Source: a virus
IMG/VR virus record: IMGVR_UViG_3300042902_000010
Coordinates: 1 to 22,468 of that record
DNA: 22,468 nt
Direction: 5' to 3' (one strand)
The notes under the pieces are model-generated. The model made no database searches and was not told the origin of the DNA. It saw only the letters and a program-made list of their open reading frames with translations. The translations under genes were made by a program, and so were the position numbers. Of this stretch, positions 5,758 to 21,855 are shown piece by piece. How positions within the stretch are numbered: the first letter of the stretch is position 1; each line of letters opens with the position of its first letter.

Positions 5758-5765
5758 TATAAATA
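5758..5765 (+). promoter_or_regulatory. T4-type late promoter box TATAAATA
   Basis: This is an exact match to the T4 late promoter consensus, starting right after the gp20 stop codon. The Shine-Dalgarno AAGGA at 5771-5775 and the ATG at 5782 follow. It should start the head-core/protease transcript (gp67-like to gp21). Confidence 0.8.
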
Positions 5766-12155: not shown

Positions 12156-13621
12156 TGGACGTTTTACAACTCACTAAACTTAATGATGCATTCATAAAAG
12201 TTGAATGTGAGAGGAGTATGGCTCAAGAATTGTCTGATTTTTTCACATTCTTTGTTCCTGGGTATCAATTCATGCCTTCATATAAGAACAAAATTTGGGA
12301 TGGAAAAATCAGACTTTTCGATTCCAGAACTAACACAATATATTATGGATTAATACCATACATCAAATCTTTTTGTGATGAAAGAAATTACAAAATACAA
12401 ATCGATCCAAATTTAATTCTGACTCAAGAATTTTCAATCAAAGAAGCGGTTGATTTTATATCAACATTAAATTTACCATTCGAACCAAGAGATTACCAAA
12501 TTAAGGCTTTTGTCCATGCTATACGAAACAAAAGAACTCTTATATTATCACCAACAGCGTCAGGCAAATCACTAATAATATATCTGATTCTTCGTTACAT
12601 GGAAGAATGTGATCATAAAAGAGGTTTGCTTATTGTACCGACAACATCACTTGTTGAACAGATGTATAGTGATTTCAAGTCTTATGGATATGATTCTGAA
12701 GAATATTGCCACAGACAGTATTCGGGAAAGGAGAAACATACAAATAAATTCTTAACAATCACAACTTGGCAAAGCATATACAAAAATCCAAAAGACTATT
12801 TTGAACAATTTGATTTTGTTTTTGGAGATGAATGTCACCAATTTAAATCCAAATCTTTAACGACAATTATGTCCCAGATCACAGACTCGAAATATAGAGT
12901 CGGTTTAACAGGAACATTGGATGGAGCACACACACACAAACTTGTGCTTGAAGGATTGTTTGGTCCAGTATATAAATCAGTCACTACAAAAGAATTGATT
13001 GACAGTAAACATCTGTCAGATTTTAGTATTAGATGTTTAGTGCTCAAGTATCCAGAAGATATATGCAAGTTGGCAAAGAAGTGGAAGTACATGGACGAAA
13101 TGAATTATATTGTATCTAATAATTCAAGAAACGTTTTTATCAAAAATTTATGCTTATCTTTAAAGGGAAATTCTCTAGTTTTGTTCAATTATGTAGAGAA
13201 ACATGGCAAAATTCTATATAAAATGATAGAATTAGAGAAGAAAAAAAGAAAAGTATTTTTTGTGTTCGGAGGCACAGATGTAGATGTACGTGAATCAATT
13301 CGTGCAATTACAGAGCAGGAAAATGATGCCATTATTGTTGCGTCATATGGCACGTTTTCGACAGGCATAAATATACGTAACTTGCACAATGTCATCTTTG
13401 CATCACCATCAAAGTCTAGAGTTAGAAATCTACAATCAATTGGTAGAGGATTAAGAAGGGGTGAAAACAAAGATGAAGCAGTTCTCTATGATATTTCAGA
13501 TGATTTTAGAAATGGTTCTTTTGTGAATTTTACATTGAGGCATTTTATAGAGAGAGTCAAAATATATGATGAAGAGAAATTTAAATATAAATTTTATAAT
13601 GTGGATTTGAAAAATGGATAA
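12155..13621 (+). CDS. uvsW: UvsW RNA-DNA/DNA helicase
   Basis: UvsW is a superfamily 2 helicase that unwinds R-loops and branched DNA and helps shift T4 replication from origin-dependent to recombination-dependent initiation. The N-terminal 105 residues fit the small UvsW DNA-binding domain. Helicase motifs follow: a Q-like PRDYQIKA at 111-118, motif I SPTASGKS at 132-139, motif II DECH at 225-228, motif III LTGT at 251-254 and motif VI QSIGRGLRR at 427-435. Length is 488 (T4: 503). The start overlaps the uvsY stop by one base and the stop overlaps the next gene by eight bases, so three genes form one unit. Confidence 0.95.
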   Translation: MDVLQLTKLNDAFIKVECERSMAQELSDFFTFFVPGYQFMPSYKNKIWDGKIRLFDSRTNTIYYGLIPYIKSFCDERNYKIQIDPNLILTQEFSIKEAVDFISTLNLPFEPRDYQIKAFVHAIRNKRTLILSPTASGKSLIIYLILRYMEECDHKRGLLIVPTTSLVEQMYSDFKSYGYDSEEYCHRQYSGKEKHTNKFLTITTWQSIYKNPKDYFEQFDFVFGDECHQFKSKSLTTIMSQITDSKYRVGLTGTLDGAHTHKLVLEGLFGPVYKSVTTKELIDSKHLSDFSIRCLVLKYPEDICKLAKKWKYMDEMNYIVSNNSRNVFIKNLCLSLKGNSLVLFNYVEKHGKILYKMIELEKKKRKVFFVFGGTDVDVRESIRAITEQENDAIIVASYGTFSTGINIRNLHNVIFASPSKSRVRNLQSIGRGLRRGENKDEAVLYDISDDFRNGSFVNFTLRHFIERVKIYDEEKFKYKFYNVDLKNG

Positions 13622-14033
13622 AGTTCTTATAGTTAGACTTCAAACTGGTGAAGATGTCATTGCAAAATATACAGAATTGGAAGGTAGTGGTGAAGTAATT
13701 CTTACTGATCCAATGACATTAATATTCAAACAAGTATCTTCTGGTAAAGCGTTCATCATGAGTCCTTGGTTACCAGTAGACTTGATTGAAAAGAATCAAG
13801 CATACATATTCATGGGTGATATCATTACCCAAGTCAAACCAAAAAGAGTTGTAATTGAATATTACAAAAAGATAGTCAATGAAACTAATATTGAAGTCAT
13901 GCAGTCTGCAAAAGATATTGAAGAATCATTGTTGAATGATTGTGAAGAGTCTTTTAATATAGATGATGAATTGTTTGAAGATGATATAGAATCATTTAAT
14001 AACCAAACTACTAAGAAGCAATTACTACATTAA
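13614..14033 (+). CDS. Small Sm/LSm-like protein with acidic tail
   Basis: The function is not established. Residues about 1-85 look like a five-strand small barrel of the Sm/LSm/Hfq type: a start KVLIVRLQTGEDVIAKYTE, a strand GEVILTDPMTLIFKQ, a central SPWLPVDL and a strand IITQVKPKRVVIEYY. In Sm-like proteins this fold binds RNA as a ring, but I see no clear RNA-binding signature and the call is by pattern only. The C-terminal 50 residues are acidic and Asn-rich (DDELFEDDIESFNNQ), probably disordered. The gene overlaps the uvsW end by eight bases. The 157 bases after it hold no gene; their right part is the promoter for gp55. Confidence 0.7.
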   Translation: MDKVLIVRLQTGEDVIAKYTELEGSGEVILTDPMTLIFKQVSSGKAFIMSPWLPVDLIEKNQAYIFMGDIITQVKPKRVVIEYYKKIVNETNIEVMQSAKDIEESLLNDCEESFNIDDELFEDDIESFNNQTTKKQLLH

Positions 14034-14135
14034 TATTATTATTCTTAACTACCCAACAGCACCATTATACTGTGTTTGAAATATCTTGTCAAGTACTATT
14101 TTAGGTAAAGATATTAAATATATTAAAATAAACAT

Positions 14136-14164
14136 TTGACATCATATTCCATTTGTGTTATACT
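14136..14164 (+). promoter_or_regulatory. Sigma-70 promoter for gp55
   Basis: TTGACA (14136-14141), a 17-base spacer and TATACT (14159-14164), with the extended -10 TG at 14156-14157. The transcript should start near 14171, leaving a leader of about 20 bases before the ATG at 14191. This is a host-polymerase (early/middle) promoter, unlike the TATAAATA boxes upstream. Confidence 0.9.
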
Positions 14165-18094: not shown

Positions 18095-18122
18095 TTGACA
18101 ATTGGTGTGGTTGTGTTATAAT
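18095..18122 (+). promoter_or_regulatory. Sigma-70 promoter for the CobT-like operon
   Basis: Perfect TTGACA (18095-18100), a 16-base spacer and perfect TATAAT (18117-18122), with extended -10 TG at 18114-18115. A leader of about 15 bases precedes the ATG at 18145. Confidence 0.92.
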
Positions 18123-18144: not shown

Positions 18145-18333
18145 ATGTTGCAAGATTATTCACACACATTGCAAGAACAAGAGGAAATGCATTTTTATTC
18201 ATGTATTTCCGATGTTACTGAATCTTTTCTCAACCATGGCGTAAAAAACATTTTATTTGAAATATCTAAAAATCCTGAATTTCGCAAACAAATTGCGGAA
18301 TATTTTCAAAATCTTGAAACGGAAATTAACTAA
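18145..18333 (+). CDS. Unknown 62-aa protein ahead of the CobT-like gene
   Basis: I do not recognise this small protein. It is helical and acidic-to-neutral, beginning MLQDYSHTLQEQEEMHFYS and ending EFRKQIAEYFQNLETEIN. There is no signal peptide or membrane segment. It is credible as a gene: it starts at a suitable distance after a consensus promoter, has TGGGAG at 18135-18140 as ribosome site, and its stop overlaps the start of the next gene by one base (TAATG). The tight coupling suggests that it works with, or sets the translation level of, the CobT-like protein. Confidence 0.75.
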   Translation: MLQDYSHTLQEQEEMHFYSCISDVTESFLNHGVKNILFEISKNPEFRKQIAEYFQNLETEIN

Positions 18334-20564
18334 TGTTTACTGTTGAATCTAAATCTCAGTTAGCAAAACTTCTTGCTTCAGAAAATCTGAATGTTGAACA
18401 CAAGAAAATTCAAACTGCATACTTCGATCTTAAGACAAGAACTTTGGCATGTCCTATTTGGAAAGATATGTCTGGTGAATTGTATGATCTTTTGATGGGT
18501 CATGAAGTTGGTCACGCTTTATATACTCCTGCTGAAGGTTGGCATGATGCTATTTGTGAAAATGGCAAAAATTTTAAAAGTTTTCTTAATGTCATTGAAG
18601 ATGCTCGGATCGAAAAGAAAATTAAACGTAAATATCCTGGCATCAAACGATCTTTTGTTGCCGCATATAAGGATCTAATTGATAAAGATTTTTTCGGCAT
18701 CAAAGACAAAGATATCCAATCATTGCCATTTATTGATAAAGTAAATTTAGAAACTAAAACCGAAAGTTCATTGAATATACAATTTGACGATGAACAACAA
18801 GTTCTTATGGACGAAGTTTTTGCTTGCGAAACTTGGGAAGAAGTTGTTACTGTATCACAAAAGATTTTTGATTATTCTAAAAATGAACAGAAATCTATGT
18901 TAGAAGATTTCTTTTCTGTACCAGAATATGAGTTGTCTGAATTTGATGATGGTTTGGATTATGAAGAAACTGATATCGAAAGTGATGATGAAGAATCTGA
19001 TATCGAAAGTGATGCTGAAGAATCTGAGTCTAAAGAATCTGATGGCGAAAGCGATTCTGAAGAGACTTCAGATAATCCAGATACTAATTTCGATAAAACT
19101 GAATCAGAAAATTTTGATCCAGTATGTAAAACTGATGAAATTTTTCGTAGAAGTGAAGTCAATTTACTAGATGAAAAAAGTAAAGAGTATGTGTACGCTG
19201 AAATTCCTAAGTTTGATCTTGACGATATTGTGACGCCTGTTGAAGTTGTTCATCATTATTTGTCGGATAAGTTTTCTCTGTACTACACTGAAGAACAACT
19301 GAATTCACAGTATAAAGAATTTCGTAAAAAGAATGACAAATATATTTCATTGTTGGTAAAAGAATTTGAGATGAAAAAATCTGCAAAAGCATATTTGAAA
19401 TCTAAAACTTCAGATACTGGCGATATTGATATTAATAAAATTTTTAAGTATCAAATTGACGATAACATCTTTAAAAAGATAACATCTCAACCAAAAGGCA
19501 AATCACACGGTCTTTTATTATTACTTGATCGTTCAGGTTCTATGTATGGTAATATGAAATCATCAATAGAACAAATTTTGATTTTGTCTTTATTTTGTAA
19601 AAAAGTCAATATTCCATTTATCGTTTATGGTTTCGGTGATTGTTCACTTTCTCGGCATGCAGATTTTCCAGGTCTAAATTATAAACCAACATTTCAGGAG
19701 AGTGAAAATTCTCTTGCACTTGGTGATGTGTATCTTCGTGAATATTTAAATTCGTCAATGAAGAAAAGTCAATTCAATGAATGTGTTCGCAATTTAGTTT
19801 TGTTATCCGAGTTATATGATATTGACTATGGCCGATATCGACTGCCTATCAATGAGTCTTTATCTTCGACACCTTTAATTGAGGCTATGGTTGTAATGAA
19901 ATCTATAGCAAAGAAATTTAAAAAAGATTACAATCTTGATATAATCAATACAGCTATCGTGCATGATGGTGATGCTGATAGTATTCGAAGTGTCAAAAAG
20001 TATGATAGTGAATATGAAAAATTTTATACACAAACTTTTGATATACAATCTAATAATGTGTTTATAGTTGATAAAAATGAAAATCAACAAATTAAAGTTG
20101 TTTCAGATACCACTATGGGAAACTATTATTATGATAATGGTTTGAAAAATTCTATATTCGAATTATATACGAAAGTTACTGGCAGTAAAATATTTGGTTT
20201 CTTTATAGTGGGAAAAGGAGTTACTGCTAAAAAGAATATTACATCAAAATATCGTAAACTAGGCAATCTTCCTATTATAACCACCACTAAAAGTTATGAT
20301 CTATTTCGTGATACTTATGAAAGTCCAGAGATGGATAAATTGATGGCTAAGTTTAAGGAAGATAAATTTTTACAATCTTTTAATTATGGTTATGAAAGTT
20401 TCTATTTGATTCCTGGCGGTAAAGATTTATCTGTTGGTGATGAGGAACTAGTTATTGATGGCAATATCACAAAAGGTAAACTTAAGACGGCATTTATGAA
20501 ATTAGGTAAGAAAAAACAGACTAATAGAGTCTTAGTATCTAAATTTATTTCTGGAATTGCTTAA
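18333..20564 (+). CDS. cobT: CobT-like protein: HExxH metallopeptidase-like N-terminus plus VWA domain
   Basis: The protein has 743 residues. The N-terminal part contains HEVGHALYTP (HExxH at 57-61), with a possible third metal ligand E89 in NVIEDARIE, which looks like a zinc-peptidase site. An acidic stretch at about 203-262 (Glu/Asp/Ser) is encoded partly by a DNA tandem repeat. A helical linker follows, then a VWA domain with the MIDAS motif DRSGS at 399-403, a probable T513 in SSTPL and D545 in VHDGD. A long acidic middle and C-terminal VWA is the layout of CobT, the partner of the AAA+ ATPase CobS in aerobic cobaltochelatase, and a CobS gene follows. No CobN subunit is seen, so cobalt insertion is not proven; a MoxR/VWA-type remodelling pair is the alternative. 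Confidence 0.8.
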   Translation: MFTVESKSQLAKLLASENLNVEHKKIQTAYFDLKTRTLACPIWKDMSGELYDLLMGHEVGHALYTPAEGWHDAICENGKNFKSFLNVIEDARIEKKIKRKYPGIKRSFVAAYKDLIDKDFFGIKDKDIQSLPFIDKVNLETKTESSLNIQFDDEQQVLMDEVFACETWEEVVTVSQKIFDYSKNEQKSMLEDFFSVPEYELSEFDDGLDYEETDIESDDEESDIESDAEESESKESDGESDSEETSDNPDTNFDKTESENFDPVCKTDEIFRRSEVNLLDEKSKEYVYAEIPKFDLDDIVTPVEVVHHYLSDKFSLYYTEEQLNSQYKEFRKKNDKYISLLVKEFEMKKSAKAYLKSKTSDTGDIDINKIFKYQIDDNIFKKITSQPKGKSHGLLLLLDRSGSMYGNMKSSIEQILILSLFCKKVNIPFIVYGFGDCSLSRHADFPGLNYKPTFQESENSLALGDVYLREYLNSSMKKSQFNECVRNLVLLSELYDIDYGRYRLPINESLSSTPLIEAMVVMKSIAKKFKKDYNLDIINTAIVHDGDADSIRSVKKYDSEYEKFYTQTFDIQSNNVFIVDKNENQQIKVVSDTTMGNYYYDNGLKNSIFELYTKVTGSKIFGFFIVGKGVTAKKNITSKYRKLGNLPIITTTKSYDLFRDTYESPEMDKLMAKFKEDKFLQSFNYGYESFYLIPGGKDLSVGDEELVIDGNITKGKLKTAFMKLGKKKQTNRVLVSKFISGIA
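18970..19023 (+). repeat. 27-bp tandem repeat (two copies) in the acidic linker
   Basis: Two copies, 18970-18996 and 18997-19023, differ at one base. They encode two nearly identical nine-residue units containing DIESD; a degenerate third copy seems to follow to about 19064. The repeat keeps the reading frame and could change the linker length by slippage. Confidence 0.85.
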
Positions 20565-20571
20565 AAAACGC

Positions 20572-20600
20572 TTGACAATTGCAAATTTTCATGTTATTAT
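20572..20600 (+). promoter_or_regulatory. Sigma-70 promoter for cobS
   Basis: Perfect TTGACA (20572-20577), a 17-base spacer and TATTAT (20595-20600), with extended -10 TG at 20592-20593. It lies in the 65-base gap after the CobT-like gene and gives cobS its own promoter. Confidence 0.88.
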
Positions 20601-20629
20601 TGTATTGTTACTTGATGAGGTATTAAATT

Positions 20630-21796
20630 ATGAGAAATAAAACTGTTGAAATTCGTGATAAGTTCTATAAATTGTTGTCAAATCTCAACCAAGAAGTTGT
20701 TGGATGGGACGAAATTAATGGTGTTTGTGAAAAAATTGGTGTGAAGTCTGCTAATTGGTTCACTGGCGATCCATCAAATAAAGTATCTCGTGGTCAGTAT
20801 CGTGTTCCAAATTTTAAAAATTCCTCAGTTCAGATGGTTGCACAAGTTATTCCTATGAAAAAAGTTGATGATGTGAAATCGAGCAATCGAATTACCAACA
20901 TAACTACAGAATTGGAAACAGAGAACCTTGTTCCCTCTGTATATGAAAACTACGTTCCTTTCGGACACTTCACTGATCTACTTGCTATTTTTGGATCAAA
21001 ACAGTTTTATCCAATTTTCATTACAGGTCATTCGGGTAATGGCAAAACAATGTCCGTAGAACAGGCGTGTGCTAAACTTGGTCGTAAATTTATCTGTGTA
21101 TCAATGACTCCAGAAACTGATGAGTCGGACTTACTTGGTAACTTTATTTTAATTAATGGAGAAATGCAATGGCGTGATGGTCCTGTGACTGTTGCCGCAA
21201 GACAAGGTGCTGTATTGTGTATAGATGAAATTGATTATGGTGCTCAAAATCTAGCATCTCTTCAACGAGTTCTTGAGGGCAAACCTTTTCTGTTAAAGAA
21301 AAAGAATGAGACAGTTGTTCCCGCTCAAGGATTCACTGTAGTTGCTACTGCTAATACAAAAGGCAAAGGATCAGATGATGGTCGTTATATGTTCACAAAT
21401 ATTTTGAATGAGGCTTTCTTAGAAAGATTCTTAAATACATATGAACAAGAATTTCCATCTACTGCTGTCGAGAAGAAAATTCTTAAAAAAGAATTGAAAT
21501 CTAATGGTCGTGAAGATGATGATTTTGCTAATAAACTCGTTGATTGGGCAGAAGTGATTCGCAAATCTTTTGTCGAAGATGCTGTTGACGAAGTGATTTC
21601 AACACGCCGTCTAGTTCATATTGCTAGAACTTATGGTGTATTTGGTGATCGCACCAAAGCCGTTCAATTATGTTTAAATCGTTTTGATGATGATACAAAA
21701 TTCTCATTTCTTGATTTGTATCGTAAGATTGATGGTGATGAACCTGTCGATGTGTCAGAGTCCACTGAAACTGTAGTTGAACACAATCCTTTCTAA
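20630..21796 (+). CDS. cobS: CobS-type AAA+ ATPase
   Basis: This is a MoxR-group AAA+ ATPase like the CobS subunit of aerobic cobaltochelatase, widely carried by T4-like cyanophages. An N-terminal helical unit (1-60) of unclear role comes first. The ATPase core has ENYVPFGHF at 106-113, Walker A GHSGNGKT at 133-140, Walker B VLCIDEID at 195-202, sensor 1 ATANT at 239-243, an arginine-finger candidate R266 in FLERF and sensor 2 around RR 326-327. Length is 388. GATGAGG at 20614-20620 is the ribosome site. In the bacterial chelatase CobS works with CobT, whose likely relative lies just upstream; the actual phage substrate is unknown. Confidence 0.9.
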   Translation: MRNKTVEIRDKFYKLLSNLNQEVVGWDEINGVCEKIGVKSANWFTGDPSNKVSRGQYRVPNFKNSSVQMVAQVIPMKKVDDVKSSNRITNITTELETENLVPSVYENYVPFGHFTDLLAIFGSKQFYPIFITGHSGNGKTMSVEQACAKLGRKFICVSMTPETDESDLLGNFILINGEMQWRDGPVTVAARQGAVLCIDEIDYGAQNLASLQRVLEGKPFLLKKKNETVVPAQGFTVVATANTKGKGSDDGRYMFTNILNEAFLERFLNTYEQEFPSTAVEKKILKKELKSNGREDDDFANKLVDWAEVIRKSFVEDAVDEVISTRRLVHIARTYGVFGDRTKAVQLCLNRFDDDTKFSFLDLYRKIDGDEPVDVSESTETVVEHNPF

Positions 21797-21826: not shown

Positions 21827-21855
21827 TTGACAATCGTGTAATAGTTTGTTATAAT
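21827..21855 (+). promoter_or_regulatory. Sigma-70 promoter for the small HTH gene
   Basis: Perfect TTGACA (21827-21832), a 17-base spacer and perfect TATAAT (21850-21855), with extended -10 TG at 21847-21848. The transcript should start near 21862, giving the longest leader in this group (about 68 bases). Confidence 0.94.

Follow-up and report, generated by a model that had tools for sequence, protein, structure and literature searches.

The gene cobS is one of six named genes of the cyanophage core (Sullivan 2010, PMC3037559); in phages it is usually counted as an auxiliary metabolic gene for vitamin B12, and its partner is labelled either a peptidase or CobT. The two functions published for this core pair of ocean phages conflict. 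Liu et al. 2021 (PMC8651126) proposed that viral cobST hijacks the CobN of the host and called the 'peptidase' label a mistake, and Iyer et al. 2021 (PMC7824862) described a jumbo-phage MoxR-vWA pair with an N-terminal metallopeptidase, for which they proposed a role in virion assembly. Some papers also mix the CobS and CobT names: cobS has been called the final step of cobalamin synthesis (PMC2984593) and cobT has been described as a lower-ligand enzyme (PMC11288001). In the NorQD complex, a finger of the VWA domain enters the pore of the ring, NorD grips the ring with its C-terminus, and the linker is twisted as ATP is turned over (PMC13036017). Here we describe a gene pair in IMG/VR virus record IMGVR_UViG_3300042902_000010, a fragment of a T4-like myovirus (the window, positions 1 to 22,468, is the whole 22,468-base record), in which a 743-amino-acid (aa) protein with a predicted zincin-like N-terminal domain and a VWA domain is encoded next to a CobS-like AAA+ ATPase (Table 1). 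The evidence presented below favours the protease-machine side of the published conflict.

We first consider the N-terminal domain. H57, E58, H61, N86, E89, D90, and R92 were invariant in 78/78 homologues of the 743-aa protein, down to 28% identity (mean pairwise identity ~35%). Since H57, E58, H61, and E89 never vary across this range, the HExxH motif is not there by chance. A first-pass annotation of the window, made by a model from the letters alone, had pointed to this motif (residues 57-61), to E89 as a candidate third ligand, to a long acidic linker, and to a VWA domain with a metal ion-dependent adhesion site (MIDAS); each of these features was borne out, and all of its coordinates and residue numbers were correct. 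In comparison with the closest relative (locus L015), the ratio of nonsynonymous to synonymous substitution rates (dN/dS) was 0.06 in the zincin part and 1.0 in the linker, a sign that strong purifying selection acts on the former. A model of residues 1-195 built from 48 sequences (predicted local distance difference test [pLDDT] score in Table 1) placed HExxH on one helix (residues 48-64) and E89 on the following helix (residues 79-100). The leading matches of this model in the PDB (Foldseek, VIA-align) were almost exclusively zincin metallopeptidases, among others jannalysin/selecase, ArdC, BlaR1, IrrE/PprI, Wss1, and ZMPSTE24; what persuades us of the zincin assignment is the agreement among these matches and not any single score. 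The domain therefore has, by sequence and by model, the conserved HExxH and the candidate third ligand on the following helix that characterize zincins, and the zincin head is probably active. Pfam and NCBIfam returned no family for the 743-aa protein, and among PDB sequences neither the protein nor its profiles matched anything beyond chance or acidic-stretch hits. DUF2201_N, a known HExxH-VWA family, matched 1/51 relatives at E 0.15 and is rare in Pseudomonadota; we claim no link to it.

HExxH is foreign to classical CobT, as the first-pass annotation had supposed: the motif was present in 0/31 CobT proteins that we extracted from Pseudomonadota genomes. When the phage family and these 31 proteins were aligned profile to profile (probability 80, E 1.3e-5, 95 N-domain columns), the phage GHEVGHAL fell on the CobT RGHADSMAL and the phage VIEDARIE, which contains E89, on the CobT AVEQARVE. 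At the level of profiles this shows that CobT and the phage protein have a common N-domain descent. In true CobT the glutamate helix is kept and HExxH is degenerate (GHADS). From the logic of the motif, and not from a rooted tree, we infer that HExxH was lost in CobT, which suggests that the cobaltochelatase CobT is a descendant or a sister of a metallopeptidase that lost its metal site. The Pfam CobT family had no match in the 743-aa protein and matched 1/51 relatives, at E 0.0098 only. The fold matches of the N-domain (Foldseek library to April 2026) included no CobT entry, a result that is uninformative on folds; CobT sequences (e.g., 9uka, 21vu) were present in the copy of PDB sequences that we searched. 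A 731-aa protein of Pseudomonadota (L143:2588-4783) matched Pfam CobT at 5e-8 but combines HECGH with a MIDAS motif, and is possibly, judging by these motifs, a bridge between CobT and the HExxH-VWA proteins. HExxH is also kept in the relatives carried by the IncC-type plasmid pNDM-116-14, by SSU5 and related phage-plasmids, and by Rhizobium, Gordonia, Rhodococcus, and ICP2 phages. On pNDM-116-14 an AAA+ gene, a DUF3150 gene, and the HExxH-VWA gene stand in a row (L082:2685-7986), and on an IncA plasmid (L083) AAA+ and DUF3150 genes were found, with no VWA gene within the stretch fetched. Three relatives, those of phage nickie (L150), of Stenotrophomonas phage BUCTxx99 (L154), and of an Acinetobacter plasmid (L084), are natural pseudo-peptidases, with DSEIS, DREVS, and DQEVA, respectively, in place of HExxH.

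The C-terminal half of the protein and the neighbouring ATPase point to a machine of the MoxR AAA+/VWA class. All five MIDAS residues of the VWA domain are present and conserved (D399, S401, S403, and T513 invariant; D545 in 99%). In the full-length AlphaFold2 (AF2) model (pLDDT 78.6), the VWA domain was closest to the MIDAS domain of Midasin (Z 16.4) and to NorD of the NorQD complex (Z 15.4), so that structure prediction, which the first-pass annotation had proposed as a check, gives a zincin-like head and a NorD/Midasin-like VWA domain. The stretch before the VWA core has invariant residues at 343-347, 349, 351, 363, and 380, among them a KEFEM-K-A block on a long helix; by analogy with NorQD, this helix may be the pore finger, and the conserved C-terminus may be the contact to the ring. 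The ATPase has a Walker A motif (GHSGNGKT) and a Walker B motif (CIDEID), matched AAA_5 (E 9e-21), CbbQ_C (E 4e-6), and phrog_249 (E 1.8e-103), and by sequence resembles solved CobS (E 9.5e-22), NorQ, CbbQ, and Midasin, the last of which is inflated as the top match by its several AAA domains in one chain. A MoxR/CbbQ-type AAA+ protein thus adjoins a VWA protein with a complete MIDAS, the combination expected of such machines. A defence-system reading of the ATPase found little support, PADLOC having given only a marginal IetA match (E 0.009).

The pair is a member of an already known gene family, the core pair of marine T4-like phages. The 743-aa protein matched phrog_459 over its full length (1-743 of 1-736), and the phrog_249 label of the ATPase is 'porphyrin biosynthesis/CobS'. 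Relatives of the 743-aa protein were found by tblastn in 463 phage records, mostly of cyanophages, plus pelagiphages and single Stenotrophomonas, Pseudoalteromonas, and Ochrobactrum phages; the ATPase was found in 510, with cyanophage and pelagiphage numbers equal to those of its partner. At least 599 candidate stretches in IMG/VR encode relatives of the 743-aa protein. Identity to it was 32% in cyanophages and 47% in the nearest full-length IMG/VR relative. In a survey of 80 fetched loci, counting those with enough sequence, the CobS-like gene stood directly downstream in every informative locus except L027 and L063, showing that the pairing of the zincin-VWA and CobS-like genes is obligatory. 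Twenty matches lay in genome bins. Since 14/20 adjoin T4-like gp46, gp47, gp55, gp45, or gp44 and the remaining six, which are short or partial, contain nothing but the pair or one pair gene, we rejected a cellular origin and treated them as phage contigs. One of these (L095), a 188-kb contig of a Nonlabens xiamenensis isolate, is T4-like, with the order gp55-gp47-gp46-pair-gp45-gp44; no CobN was found in that genome.

We then examined promoters and genomic place. The two genes have separate sigma-70 promoters of consensus type, as the first-pass annotation had reported (Table 1); on the plus strand, 2 perfect matches were found in the window vs. 0.03 expected from shuffles. A promoter with 0-1 mismatches was present in the 300 nt upstream of the 743-aa-homologue gene in 20/44 homologous loci, and before the ATPase gene in 23/43 homologous intervals vs. 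5/235 random stretches. For phage DLP6, a hypothetical gene and the peptidase have likewise been reported to be preceded by a single promoter (PMC5349666). The late element TATAAATA occurs in the window at 5758, 8641, and 11141, at structural genes only, and late elements are rare in homologous loci, whereas gp55, the pair, and the HTH-like gene (Table 1) are each preceded by perfect or one-mismatch sigma-70 promoters. Gene order is conserved as gp55-gp47-gp46-pair-two unknowns-gp45-gp44-gp62-regA (gp45 lies beyond the window end, and the gp46-gp45 interval was seen in relatives), and other phage and plasmid relatives often adjoin genes for DNA polymerase III alpha or primase. Promoter type and this replication and transcription neighbourhood favour an early role over that of a late maturation protease and speak for a pair that acts early, around replication, transcription, or takeover.

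Taken together, we consider it probable, though far from settled, that the pair forms a remodelling machine of the MoxR AAA+/VWA class, which the phage makes early and whose zincin head is probably active. The machine class is the firmer part of this reading and proteolysis the less firm; complex formation, the role of the finger, zinc binding, proteolysis, and a host or phage target handled early are steps that we infer. Host sigma-70 RNA polymerase would make the pair early in infection, and the CobS-like ATPase would assemble as a ring, on which the 743-aa protein would dock via its VWA domain, helical finger, and C-terminus, as NorD does on NorQ. The MIDAS would bind a target protein, ATP-driven twisting would open the target and present it to the zincin head, and the head would cut or trim it; the target may be a host or a phage protein that is handled early. 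Several observations weigh against this reading. The fold matches of the N-domain are each modest (best Z 7.6; best Foldseek E 0.04). HExxH is lost and the AAA+/VWA pair kept in the three elements with pseudo-peptidases (nickie, BUCTxx99, and the Acinetobacter plasmid), indicating that the machine can exist without catalysis. The profile similarity to CobT (probability 80) leaves room for a chelatase-like use, and promoter type neither proves the timing of expression nor precludes late activity. A bolder version, in which this core early pair of the commonest ocean T4-like phages is an ATP-driven unfolder-protease acting on a host protein to remove or reprogram it (such as a component of the machinery for transcription, replication, or defence), CobT is a descendant that lost the protease site, and the B12 story of phage cobS is wrong, appears to us possible but doubtful. 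If the protease-machine side is right, B12 claims that rest on phage cobS in viromes need revision.

The first-pass annotation had offered two options, a separate AAA+/VWA machine and a pair that tops up a host chelatase; our results favour the former. The latter amounts to the proposal that phage CobST joins host CobN and boosts cobalamin synthesis as auxiliary metabolic genes, and it agrees with an N-domain homologous to that of CobT, with an ATPase homologous to CobS, and with the CobN-family proteins that cyanobacterial hosts possess. It is disfavoured because no CobN was found in the pair-bearing phages tested, because the ATPase scored 71.4 bits against the CobS equivalog TIGR01650 (cutoff 558.55), and because the N-domain site that CobT has lost is kept, HExxH and E89 being invariant in the phages. 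The first-pass annotation had seen no CobN, and we found none in the window, itself only a 22-kb fragment, and in 0/18 pair-bearing elements (phages, viral contigs, and plasmids). Among 50,697 phage records CobN occurred in 2; these two are unannotated, and neither was one of the pair carriers seen. One of them, a Pseudomonas phage record (Y13), has a full-length CobN (OQ572414.1:16274-19999), which is probably host DNA in the assembly. Among the 20 bins with a pair-bearing phage contig, CobN-family proteins were found only in two cyanobacterial ones, and the 18 without them include the Nonlabens isolate assembly; the bins are incomplete and membership in them is weak host evidence. Pelagiphages also carry the pair, and their SAR11 hosts are without MetH (PMC12478193). 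A cobaltochelatase role is thus disfavoured on this genomic evidence, and we regard the CobST proposal as unlikely.

A virion assembly chaperone with a maturation protease, the role proposed for the jumbo-phage pair, appears improbable as well, if by a hair less so than the CobST proposal. The domain layout is the same by the description of Iyer et al., and an archaeal virus MoxR-VWA pair serves tail development (cited in PMC7824862). Head proteins are also processed in the maturation of T4-like phages; these phages, however, already have an established gp21-type prohead protease, and the pair is preceded by sigma-70 promoters and has genes of replication and transcription as its neighbours, whereas the late elements stand at the structural genes. 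A NorQD-like insertase of a metal cofactor into a phage or host metalloenzyme (e.g., ribonucleotide reductase), in which HExxH would bind or hand over the metal instead of cutting protein, is in our estimate the least likely of the three. NorQD, which inserts iron, is the closest solved VWA partner machine, and the place of the pair among replication genes would fit such a role; the invariant third-ligand glutamate and the catalytic-type E58, in contrast, suit a peptidase better than a metal carrier.

The remaining features of the locus concern the neighbouring genes. The stop codon of a 62-aa gene overlaps the start of the 743-aa gene by one base (TAATG), which agrees with the coupling noted in the first-pass annotation, and its dN/dS of 0.06 vs. 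L015 indicates purifying selection; on these grounds the 62-aa protein is real. No family match was found in Pfam, NCBIfam, or phrog profiles, and the protein recurs in one other locus of ~80; in other lineages this place holds unrelated small genes or none. We therefore rejected it as a general partner of the pair, as it is lineage-specific. Directly 3' of the pair lies an HTH_39-like winged-helix gene, with relatives at the equivalent place in many related phages. In many relatives phrog_1574 and phrog_480 lie between the pair and gp45 (L010:9982-11063), and phrog_480 has weak nucleotide-kinase matches. Before the pair, the window encodes the large terminase, tail sheath, portal, scaffold, major head protein, and a UvsW-like helicase, as well as gp55, gp47- and gp46-like genes, and a peptide deformylase; by the major head protein, the nearest named relatives are phages of marine Synechococcus/Prochlorococcus (~63% identity). 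On the minus strand, a perfect sigma-70 promoter (TTGACA-17-TATAAT; window 14069-14164) runs leftwards from 14092, back to back with the plus-strand gp55 promoter (14136); it points into the gene at 13614-14033 and the UvsW-like helicase, antisense to both.

Table 1. Features of the zincin-VWA/CobS-like locus, with positions in the window.
Feature	Position	Strand	Remarks
Sigma-70 promoter, perfect (TTGACA-16-TATAAT), before the 62-aa and zincin-VWA genes	18095..18122	+	
62-aa protein, lineage-specific, TAATG coupling to the next gene	18145..18333	+	no family match
743-aa zincin-VWA protein, CobT-like, phrog_459 'peptidase'	18333..20564	+	phrog_459 E 8.5e-178
Predicted N-terminal zincin-like metallopeptidase domain, residues 1-195	18333..18917	+	model pLDDT 91.8
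HEVGH, predicted metal site (H57-E58-x-x-H61)	18501..18515	+	invariant 78/78
E89, candidate third zinc ligand, motif NVxEDxRIE	18597..18599	+	invariant 78/78; on the helix next to that of HExxH in sequence order
Acidic low-confidence linker, residues 196-264, 46% D+E	18918..19124	+	dN/dS ~1
Long helix and loop preceding the VWA core, residues 319-389, candidate pore finger	19287..19499	+	NorD analogy
VWA domain with complete MIDAS; conserved C-terminus (R732, F738)	19500..20561	+	
Sigma-70 promoter (TTGACA-17-TATTAT), CobS-like gene	20572..20600	+	
CobS-like MoxR-class AAA+ ATPase, phrog_249	20630..21796	+	AAA_5, CbbQ_C, phrog_249 matches
Sigma-70 promoter, perfect (TTGACA-17-TATAAT), for the HTH_39-like gene	21827..21855	+	
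HTH_39-like winged-helix gene, 90 aa	21930-22202		weak HTH_39 match, E 4e-4

Among known systems, the phrog_459/phrog_249 core pair of cyanophages is alike in full-length match, pairing, and place between gp46 and gp45, and the present locus differs from it only by sequence divergence and by its lineage-specific 62-aa leader gene. CobNST (Pfam CobT, TIGR01650) likewise combines an AAA+ protein with a CobT-like N-domain, an acidic linker, and a C-terminal MIDAS VWA domain; here, in contrast, HExxH is intact, the ATPase fails the equivalog, no CobN is seen, and the context is that of viral replication. The jumbo-phage MoxR-vWA-metallopeptidase pair (Iyer et al. 2021), compared by description only, is alike in layout, but its proposed virion-assembly role misfits the early promoters found here. 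The IncC-type plasmid and phage-plasmid pairs (SSU5, pNDM-116-14, ICP2, and Gordonia phages) mostly have the AAA+ gene beside the HExxH-VWA gene and often adjoin DNA polymerase III alpha or primase genes; they differ in being very distant, with short N-domain similarity only, and several are without HExxH. NorQ/NorD and Midasin (Rea1/MDN1), which gave the best structural matches of the VWA domain, likewise join a MoxR/clade-7 AAA+ motor to a MIDAS VWA partner; they differ in that their N-terminal parts are not zincins and they act on nitric oxide reductase and pre-60S ribosomes.

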